Shown piece by piece: positions 36,243-40,894 of a stretch of 64,000 nucleotides of DNA. Position numbers and translations under genes: made by a program. Positions within the stretch are counted from its first letter, which is position 1. Each line of letters begins with the position of its first letter. The stretch is from Planctomycetota bacterium (lineage in GTDB: Bacteria; Planctomycetota; Planctomycetia; Planctomycetales; Planctomycetaceae). The DNA is taken from NCBI GenBank assembly GCA_022600195.1, contig JAHZKX010000017.1, positions 1 through 64,000 on the forward strand. The letters run 5' to 3'. The notes under the pieces are model-generated. The model made no database searches. It had not been told where the DNA came from and saw only the letters and a program-made list of their open reading frames with translations.

Positions 36243-36989
36243 ATGAATTCGCCTACTCAAAGATTTAATATCCCTCAAAATCAAGATCGCGCAATGCAGA
36301 TCTACATGCTGGGATGCGTCGATTTCGACTCGTTGCTGCTGCTACAGGAACGTACGCTACAAGAAATGCGCAGAAAGGAATCAGATCAAGCGGTCCTTTT
36401 TATTTGTGAACACCCACCCATCGTGACCATAGGACGGGAAGGAAGTCTCAGGCAGCTAATCGGTTCTGAACAGGAGCTCAAGGCCGGTCAGATTGAAGTA
36501 CGCTGGATTAACCGTGGTGGTGGTGCCTTATTTCACGCACCAGGACAACTGGCCGTCTATCCTGTCATTCCTCTGAAACGAATCGGTCTGGGAATTCCTG
36601 ACTATCAAACCGGTCTTTCACAAGCAGTCATCAAGATGGCAAAGGAACAGGGAGTAGTGGCTCACACCCAACCTGGTTCTTCGGGTATTTTCAGCCGTTG
36701 TGGGCAGTTTTCCTTCCTGGGGGCTGCGATTAAATCATGGATTTCTTACTATGGGATGTATATAAACGTTTCACCAGACATGAAGTTATTACGTTTGATT
36801 GATTCCAACCAGAACGACCACCGTCTCACATCACTGTCAGCAACGCTGACGCGCGAAGCCAGTATGAGTGCTGTTCGGGAGAGTCTCATGAGGCAGCTTG
36901 TGTCACAATTTGGATATCAGCAGACACATATTTTTACGCAACACCCCTTACTACATAAAGTGAAGAATCAAGTTTATGTCCACACTTAA
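36243..36989 (+). CDS. lipB: LipB-like octanoyltransferase homologue lacking canonical catalytic Lys and Cys
   Basis: CEHPPIVTIGREG, NRGGGALFHAPGQLAVYPVI, TSLSATL; overlaps lipA by 14 bp. Confidence 0.85.
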   Translation: MNSPTQRFNIPQNQDRAMQIYMLGCVDFDSLLLLQERTLQEMRRKESDQAVLFICEHPPIVTIGREGSLRQLIGSEQELKAGQIEVRWINRGGGALFHAPGQLAVYPVIPLKRIGLGIPDYQTGLSQAVIKMAKEQGVVAHTQPGSSGIFSRCGQFSFLGAAIKSWISYYGMYINVSPDMKLLRLIDSNQNDHRLTSLSATLTREASMSAVRESLMRQLVSQFGYQQTHIFTQHPLLHKVKNQVYVHT

Positions 36990-37875
36990 TATATTGTCAG
37001 ATCCTCAACCAGCGCCGCGACAGCGACTTCCAAAATGGCTTAAAAGACCGCTACCCAAACCGGGAATGTCTTTTACAAGTAATGTCATCGAAGATTTGAA
37101 TCTGGTTACTGTTTGCGAAAGTGCCAAGTGCCCGAATCGAACTGAATGCTGGTCACACAAAACAGCAACTCTGATGATCCTGGGAAATGTCTGCACCCGA
37201 CCTTGTGGATTTTGTTCTATCCCCAAAGGCAAAACGGAAACAGTTCAGATAGATGAACCAGAACGTGTTGCGGAAGCGGCAGCTCGATTGGGATTGAAAC
37301 ATGTGGTGATCACATCTGTCACACGGGATGATTTGCCAGATGGTGGAGCAGAACATTTTTATAATTGTGTTCTGGCCGTGCGCGAACGCACGGGGGCTGA
37401 CATTGAAGTGTTGACTCCCGACTTCCGAGGTGACCGTAAGGCTATTCAGCGTGTGATCGAAGCGCACCCTGATGTATTTAACCATAATACGGAAACAGTC
37501 CCTCGGCTGTATCATCGGGTTCGTCGCAACGCAGTCTATCAAAGAACCCTGGATCTGTTGATTCAGGTCAAGGAAACGGATCCTTCGATCGTCACAAAAA
37601 GTGGTATCATGCTGGGGCTTGGTGAAACCAGAGAAGAGGTTCTGGAAGTGTGCGCTGATCTGCGGGCGACAGGTTGCGATATGATTACCATTGGGCAATA
37701 TTTACAACCAGCGCCTGAAAATTTACCGGTGGAGCGATTTCTACCTCCCGAAGAATTTGATGAGATAGGAGATCAGGTACGTGCTATGGGATTCAAGCTG
37801 GTCGCCAGCGGCCCCTTTGTAAGATCCAGCTATAATGCTGGCGAAATGGCGGCGGTACTGGAGAATGATTCCTGA
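36976..37875 (+). CDS. lipA: Lipoyl synthase (radical SAM)
   Basis: CESAKCPNRTECW, CTRPCGFC, VLTPDFRGD, NHNTETVPRLYHRVR, FVRSSYNA motifs. Confidence 0.97.
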   Translation: MSTLNILSDPQPAPRQRLPKWLKRPLPKPGMSFTSNVIEDLNLVTVCESAKCPNRTECWSHKTATLMILGNVCTRPCGFCSIPKGKTETVQIDEPERVAEAAARLGLKHVVITSVTRDDLPDGGAEHFYNCVLAVRERTGADIEVLTPDFRGDRKAIQRVIEAHPDVFNHNTETVPRLYHRVRRNAVYQRTLDLLIQVKETDPSIVTKSGIMLGLGETREEVLEVCADLRATGCDMITIGQYLQPAPENLPVERFLPPEEFDEIGDQVRAMGFKLVASGPFVRSSYNAGEMAAVLENDS

Positions 37876-38127
37876 ATGGCCACCCCAATAGTCGTTCCTC
37901 CGGTGGGCTGCCCGAATCAGGATTTGACCGTAAGTTTATGGCTGGCTCGAGTGGGGGAACAGGTATTCGCTGGAGATCGAGTGGTTGAATTGCTGATGCC
38001 GGGTATAATTTTTGACGTCGAATCTTCCTGTTCGGGAATAATCACCTCTTATGAATGTCAACCTGGCACAAAAGTCCGGGAAGGAAATGTCTTGGGATGG
38101 ATTGAACAAGAACAGCTAGACTCATGA
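37876..38127 (+). CDS. Stand-alone lipoyl/biotinyl-like domain protein without the modifiable Lys
   Basis: MATPIVVPPVG...VSLWLARVGEQVFAGDRVVELLMPGIIFDVESSCSGIITSYECQPGTKVREGNVLGWIE. Confidence 0.85.
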   Translation: MATPIVVPPVGCPNQDLTVSLWLARVGEQVFAGDRVVELLMPGIIFDVESSCSGIITSYECQPGTKVREGNVLGWIEQEQLDS

Positions 38128-38184: not shown

Positions 38185-39240
38185 ATGACAACGGATCAAA
38201 TAAAAGGTCATCAATCAATTCTTGAAATGCTGAATCGCGCATTGTCGCGAGGCCGAATGCCTCATGCATTATTGTTTGCGGGAGATGCAGGCATTGGAAA
38301 AAAACGGATTGCTTTGTATCTTGCTCAGTGTTTATTTTGCCAGCAAACTGCCACCGATCATCTAAGTTGTTGTCATGAGTGTGATTCATGCAAACAAATG
38401 GCCGCGGGTACGCATCCGGACTTGATCTCCATCGAATGCCCTCCAGACAAAGCGATTTTACCCCTAAGCTTGATTATTGGCAGAGACGAAAACCGGGGAC
38501 GCGAGGGAGTTTGTTATGAAATGTCGCTGCGTCCCATGCTGGGAAATCGTCGAGTGGCGATCATAGATGATGCAGATAAAATGAATGCTGAATCTGCAAA
38601 TGCCTTGCTCAAGACTCTCGAGGAACCTACTGCGAACTATCTAATGATCTTGATCGCAAGTGAACTGGATGCCATTCTGCCTACAATACGTTCCCGCTGT
38701 CAAACCATTCGATTTGGTCGTTTATCAGAAGAAGACGTGGCAGAATTATTACTGCAGCAAGAACTGGTTGAATCTGAAGATCAGGCGTTTCAAATTGCAC
38801 GTTTCGCGGAAGGTTCACTGAAAATAGCCAGTCAGCTACTGGATGATAATTTGAAAGTGCTTCGTGCCAGCATCACAGAACAGCTTGGTAAAAAGCCTTT
38901 TTTACCTCAAGTTTTTGCACAAGTCGTCATACAGGCCATAGATGACATTGGGGGGAACACGGCAGCACAGCGTAAAACAGCAAACTGGATTATCAAATTC
39001 TGTGCTGATTTTTATCATCAGGCATTACAATCTGCATCAGGATATAACCAGGGTATAAACTCTGAGGAACTCAGACGGTTTGTTGCTGGTTTATCGGGAG
39101 AAACGGAAGATCGGATCGAAAAAATCGGGAATCTTCTTGATAGAATGATCCAGACGGAAGAAGAAATCGCTAAAAACGTGACAATTTCATTGTGTATCGA
39201 AAGCTTGAGTGAAGACCTCAAAGGTATACTGATGAAATAA
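38185..39240 (+). CDS. holB: DNA polymerase III subunit delta'
   Basis: GRMPHALLFAGDAGIGKKRIALYLAQCLFC, ADKMNAESANALLKTLEEP, ILPTIRSRCQ motifs. Confidence 0.92.
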   Translation: MTTDQIKGHQSILEMLNRALSRGRMPHALLFAGDAGIGKKRIALYLAQCLFCQQTATDHLSCCHECDSCKQMAAGTHPDLISIECPPDKAILPLSLIIGRDENRGREGVCYEMSLRPMLGNRRVAIIDDADKMNAESANALLKTLEEPTANYLMILIASELDAILPTIRSRCQTIRFGRLSEEDVAELLLQQELVESEDQAFQIARFAEGSLKIASQLLDDNLKVLRASITEQLGKKPFLPQVFAQVVIQAIDDIGGNTAAQRKTANWIIKFCADFYHQALQSASGYNQGINSEELRRFVAGLSGETEDRIEKIGNLLDRMIQTEEEIAKNVTISLCIESLSEDLKGILMK

Positions 39241-40465: not shown

Positions 40466-40894
40466 ATGGGTAAAAAAATGACCTCTACCACTAATCTTTC
40501 TCAACCAAAACTACAATTTCATCCCAATGCGTATGACTTTGTTTTTGAAGCATTACAGCAGGCGCAAGAAATCTATGCGCGAACCGTGGTGAATGAGAAT
40601 GATCAGGAAGAAGCTCATGTTTCAGGTCAGGAACTTCTGGATGGAGTACGCGCTCTTGCTCTCCAACAGTTCGGTTTAATGACCACCACCGTCTTTAAAG
40701 TATGGGGTGTGGAATCAACCAAAGACTTCGGAAAAATGGTCTTTGAGATGATTGAGCATGGCAGAATGCGAAAAACAGAAAATGACCGACTCGAAGACTT
40801 TGTCGATCTCTATGATTTTGAACAGGTTTTCGATTTGAATTATGTCATCGATACCAGCCAGGTTTTCAACCGTAGTACAGCAGATCAGGCTTGA
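40466..40894 (+). CDS. Minf_1886 family protein
   Basis: YDFVFEALQQAQEIYARTV...HVSGQELLDGVRALALQQFGLMTTTVFKVWGVESTKDFGKMVFEMIE. Confidence 0.88.
   Translation: MGKKMTSTTNLSQPKLQFHPNAYDFVFEALQQAQEIYARTVVNENDQEEAHVSGQELLDGVRALALQQFGLMTTTVFKVWGVESTKDFGKMVFEMIEHGRMRKTENDRLEDFVDLYDFEQVFDLNYVIDTSQVFNRSTADQA

Follow-up and report, generated by a model that had tools for sequence, protein, structure and literature searches.

The locus and the question it raises

Why should a bacterium keep, beside the gene for lipoyl synthase, a lipoyl domain without the lysine that carries lipoate? The question arises from a contig of a Planctomycetota bacterium (JAHZKX010000017.1, positions 1 to 64,000); this whole 64,000-nucleotide stretch is called the window here. 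The features concerned are as follows.

36,243 to 36,989, forward strand: lipB*, encoding a LipB-fold protein without catalytic Lys and Cys (LplA-B_cat, PF21948, 101.5 bits)
36,705 to 36,707, forward strand: codon (cag) for Gln155, at the position of the LipB catalytic Lys (Escherichia coli K135, Mycobacterium tuberculosis K142)
36,804 to 36,806, forward strand: codon (tcc) for Ser188, at the position of the LipB catalytic Cys (E. coli C169, M. tuberculosis C176)
36,976 to 37,875, forward strand: lipA, intact lipoyl synthase, overlapping the end of lipB* by 14 bp and abutting lipX
37,876 to 38,127, forward strand: lipX, a stand-alone 83-aa lipoyl-like domain (PF00364, lipoyl fold) lacking the lipoyl lysine
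37,999 to 38,004, forward strand: codons for Pro42-Gly43, the hairpin tip, Asp-Lys in canonical lipoyl domains (alignment and model)
38,185 to 39,240, forward strand: holB (DNA polymerase III delta'), a syntenic marker 57 bp beyond lipX

The start codon of lipX directly follows the stop codon of lipA (TGAATG), as the initial annotation had read it. LipA scores 366 bits against TIGR00510 (cut-off, 310) and contains the motifs CX4CX5C and CX3CX2C and a C-terminal RSSY, and the closest matches of lipA are in Gimesia MAGs, which marks the organism as a Gimesia-like planctomycete; the lipA matches in four other genomes (G057, G543, G523, and G545) each have one in-frame stop. Farther along the window, 3' of ricT, positions 40,466 to 40,894 encode a protein of the conserved family TIGR04138 (Plancto_Ver_chp), whose function is unknown.

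A lipoyl domain without its lysine is a trait of the class

LipX matches PF00364 at 24.6 bits (Pfam; cut-off, 22.1), as do all of the family members scanned (35 of 35), and PF13533, PF13437, and PF13375 are matched by only 6, 5, and 2 members, respectively. Its gap-free correspondence to a standard lipoyl domain, first drawn from the letters alone, was confirmed by both profile and structure alignments, in which Gly43 falls at the position of the lipoyl lysine of E2 domains (e.g., 1PMR), and these alignments exclude an alignment error as the cause of the missing residue. The AlphaFold model (pLDDT of 93.6) has strands at residues 35 to 41 and 44 to 49, which places the hairpin tip at Pro42-Gly43, and the PDB entries that match the model best are lipoyl and biotinyl domains. 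K66 is the sole lysine of the protein and, as had been noted, lies in its second half, where it is no known modification site; it is not conserved among orthologues. LipX is, on alignment and predicted structure, a lipoyl domain that should be non-modifiable at the known lipoylation site.

The substitution extends well beyond the window. Lysine is present at the hairpin site in 0 of 55 distinct planctomycete LipX orthologues, 50 of which have Gly and the remainder Glu, Ala, or Asp; additional class members beyond these 55 likewise lack it, and among the 55 there is no conserved Lys or Cys column elsewhere in the protein. The E2 and GcvH proteins of the window's own genome retain their lipoyl lysines. 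A strain-specific mutation is excluded by the conserved LipX family, and the initial suspicion of a non-modifiable domain fixed in a lipoate operon can be widened: comparison of orthologues supports the loss of the lysine as a class-wide trait of the lipB-lipA-lipX arrangement. The possibility raised at the outset, that orthologues mostly keep the lysine, fails within the class, although it does describe distant members of the phylum (see below).

Both lipX and lipB* are under purifying selection, with dN/dS of lipX mostly 0.1 to 0.37 (0.54 in the closest pair, which has few changes), and no LipX copies were found in plasmid records. In an unrooted phylogeny of 78 columns, the LipX proteins of the class form one group and the E2 domains another, both well supported; this separation excludes LipX as a recent offshoot of the genome's own E2.

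The neighboring LipB-like protein has lost its catalytic dyad

The model of LipB* (pLDDT of 90.7) most resembles 2QHS (TM score of 0.93 by target length), and its score against the octanoyltransferase model TIGR00214 falls below the curated cut-off (73.3 versus 83.55 bits). The Lys and Cys whose catalytic roles in LipB are documented elsewhere (PMC9307952) are replaced by Gln155 and Ser188, a second defect that the initial annotation had overlooked, and the dyad is likewise gone from the aligned lipA-linked LipB loci of planctomycetes. Sampling 20 genomes from various families of the class gave 18 whose LipB* orthologues lack both residues; the other two (G437 and G454) encode a canonical LipB and no LipX. 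The pocket-forming motifs RGG, H-PGQ, and G--N stay conserved, with R91, H98, G101, and Q102 invariant, and no invariant replacement nucleophile occurs near the lost Cys. Planctomycete genes annotated as lipB are probably not octanoyltransferases. An inactive E. coli LipB (K135A/C169A) has been used in an NMR titration with C8-CoA, in which amides changed (PMC9307952). The C terminus of LipB* (window positions about 36,900 to 36,986) bears a YTGHPLL-R-R-KV-like motif that the window's family keeps and canonical LipB lacks.

LipB* and LipX are kept or lost together

Across 199 genomes of the class, LipB* (or LipB) was detected in 147 and LipX in 136, the latter called at an E value of about 2e-15 or better, with two manual additions (G321 and G361) and one long-frame hit judged to be an E2 (G558) removed by hand. 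Leaving out the two canonical LipBs, 135 genomes have both proteins, 10 have LipB* only, 1 has LipX only, and 53 have neither (Fisher p of about 1e-36, uncorrected for phylogeny); the genome with LipX only also lacks lipA in its assembly, so an assembly gap is likely. Five families (f1, f3, f5, f7, and f104) each hold both states, and the joint loss thus probably happened more than once.

LipB* mostly remains next to lipA, and LipX lies away from it in several families. In one genome (G142), LipB* and LipA are encoded on one contig (C1) and LipX on another (C34), and the pair survives the separation. Unlinked LipX adjoins rpiB in two cases (loci L168 and L170, of genomes G057 and G040, about 6.0 to 6.9 kb); the rpiB of the window's own genome is directly 5' of gcvH (L135:4504-5638). 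The distance matrices of LipX and LipB* remain correlated when LipA is removed (partial r of 0.38, with 0 of 999 permutations as high). The pairing of LipB* with LipX, which are retained or lost jointly also where their genes are unlinked, is well supported, and because of it the two probably act as a noncatalytic helper pair.

Deeper lineages retain both active sites

Four loci of deeper members of the phylum (L174, L175, L176, and L183) have the order lipB-lipA-stand-alone lipoyl domain, and there the domain has Asp-Lys and the LipB has both Lys and Cys; a fifth (L184) has the order lipA-lipoyl domain. Among the genomes examined outside the class, the lysine of the domain is kept in all 26 with an intact LipB (counting G169, whose LipB is partial on its contig), whereas among six genomes without LipB, it is lost in four and kept in two (G367 and G389). 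These four losses, at loci L181, L274, L278, and L185 (G256, G233, G192, and G346, respectively), occur where no LipB was found, and the Lys-loss cases of family f80 are nested in the tree within a group that bears the Lys.

A Lys-bearing stand-alone domain is also encoded directly 5' of holB in a genome tentatively considered Kuenenia-like, and this shared neighbor supports its orthology with LipX. In the unrooted tree, of which few deeper forks are resolved, the Lys-bearing stand-alone domains fall between the LipX and E2 groups. The Lys-bearing domain of deeper planctomycetes is likely the orthologue of LipX in its ancestral state, and the loss of the LipB* dyad, set beside the intact sites of these lineages, suggests that LipX is one half of a degenerated enzyme-substrate pair.

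Other putative transferases accompany the lipoyl acceptors

Two further genes of the LplA/LipB family occur in the genome of the window. One, LplA-like, overlaps lpd behind E2 in an E2-lpd-LplA-like operon (L134:5706-9167); the other, in a gcvH-gcvPA-gcvPB-LipM-like operon (L135:5180-9531), overlaps gcvPB and carries the LipM-like Cys. Each acceptor operon (E2-lpd and gcvH-gcvP) has its own putative transferase, an acceptor-specific arrangement, and, judging from gene position and family, acyl attachment is presumably the task of these LplA-like and LipM-like enzymes. Among the class genomes that lack the LipB*-LipX pair, most retain LipA and enzymes of the LipM/LplA-like kind, which makes the pair dispensable for lipoylation itself, an accessory rather than part of the core pathway.

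A proposed former enzyme-substrate pair and its alternatives

We propose that LipB* and LipX were once enzyme and substrate and that, their chemistry lost, they were retained as a noncatalytic complex scaffolding or regulating LipA-dependent lipoylation, an explanation to which we give about an even chance. The planctomycete ancestor would have encoded a working LipB octanoyltransferase and a dedicated stand-alone lipoyl domain around lipA. Attachment of octanoyl or lipoyl groups would then have moved to the LipM-like enzyme by the glycine cleavage genes and to the LplA-like enzyme by E2-E3, while LipB* would still bind LipX at the old interface between LipB and its lipoyl domain, its old pocket possibly occupied by octanoyl-phosphopantetheine. 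Because acyl transfer could not be completed, the two proteins are proposed to form a stable noncatalytic complex, which may hold, stabilize, or gate LipA such that LipA meets octanoylated acceptors. The losses of both sites, the retained folds, the co-inheritance, the operon with an intact LipA, and the intact sites of deeper lineages are what was observed; from there we infer the physical complex, the LipA contact, and the effect on lipoylation. Counting against such a complex are the 10 genomes with LipB* but no LipX, the dispensability of the pair, and the occasional unlinking of LipX. The bolder form of the proposal, in which enzyme and substrate lost their chemistry in parallel and now constitute an obligate, class-wide pseudoenzyme-pseudosubstrate complex that controls lipoyl synthase or takes the place of LipL-type distribution, seems to us somewhat less probable than the general one.

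Two alternatives are unlikely to about the same degree. LipB* might have gained another catalytic activity and might, e.g., carry out the LipL-like amidotransferase step that is otherwise missing, LipX then serving it as guide or activator subunit: the conserved pocket motifs are consistent with this, and a genome survey found many LipM/LipA bacteria without LipL and proposed unknown amidotransferases (PMC10332631), but both classical catalytic residues are gone from LipB* and no invariant nucleophile near the lost Cys has taken over. The LplA-like gene seems to be more common where LipB* is absent, as if one replaced the other (about 19 of 22 genomes without LipB* versus 7 of 14 with it, a small sample scored by match range only), yet the two coexist in many genomes.

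Alternatively, the pair might have left lipoylation for an unrelated role (ligand sensing, for instance, or a structural function), its adjacency to lipA being inherited gene order. The unlinked LipX genes, two of them next to rpiB, and the genomes that have LipA without the pair fit such a departure; against it, LipB* stays mostly beside lipA, in overlapping frames in the window, and common descent with the lineages whose active sites are intact connects the pair to octanoyl transfer. We consider this no more probable than a new activity of LipB*.

That lipB* and lipX are relics in decay, still in the operon only by chance, as the loss of both active sites and the joint losses in several families might suggest, is very improbable in the face of purifying selection on intact frames, residues invariant across the class in both proteins, and the presence of both genes in 135 of 199 genomes, unlinked copies included. 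Least probable of all is a modification of LipX that uses a different residue or a different cofactor, which its full lipoyl fold might allow, since the family offers no conserved Lys or Cys column and K66 is itself unconserved.

Meaning and comparison with known systems

Lipoate assembly is textbook biochemistry, yet a bacterial class co-inherits, around an intact LipA, a LipB that is probably dead and a lipoyl domain that is predicted to be non-modifiable. The open-access papers searched describe neither planctomycete pseudoenzymes of the LipB/LipA kind nor a lipA-adjacent lipoyl protein that lacks the lysine, and within that literature the pair seems to be undescribed. If our explanation holds, the locus would be an evolutionary record of the passage from an enzyme-substrate pair to a noncatalytic complex, with lineages from before and after the change, and would point to an unrecognized layer in lipoylation that provides control or delivery; it would also bear on the route by which E2 proteins are lipoylated in LipM-type organisms that have no LipL. 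For annotation, caution is in order with planctomycete "lipB" genes, given their probable lack of octanoyltransferase activity. The two proteins compare with known systems as follows.

(i) LipB octanoyltransferases (TIGR00214; 2QHS and 1W66) share with LipB* the fold (TM score of 0.93 by target length) and the RGG and H-PGQ motifs. LipB* differs in the loss of the catalytic Lys and Cys and in its score below the family cut-off, and many of its members have a conserved extra C-terminal GHPLL-type motif.

(ii) E2 lipoyl domains (PF00364) share the fold of LipX and align with it without gaps, and W22, G54, and other core positions are kept. LipX, unlike these, stands alone, has its Asp-Lys replaced, usually by Pro-Gly, and is not expected to be lipoylated at the known site.

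(iii) GcvH and LbpA, like LipX, are small lipoyl-type proteins that stand alone and are linked to dedicated lipoate assembly genes, but they are lipoylated on a Lys that LipX does not have, and a separate, Lys-bearing GcvH is encoded in the same genome.

(iv) The barrel-sandwich hybrids RnfC_N, HlyD_3, and Biotin_lipoyl_2 resemble LipX in having a lipoyl-like fold and no modified Lys. LipX is set apart from these hybrids by its uniform match to PF00364 (35 of 35), by standing alone, and by having Lys-bearing relatives in identical gene order.

(v) These relatives, whose genes in deeper planctomycetes adjoin lipB-lipA or holB, share gene neighbors with LipX and are its nearest relatives by profile; they retain Asp/Glu-Lys and accompany an intact LipB, whereas LipX does neither.
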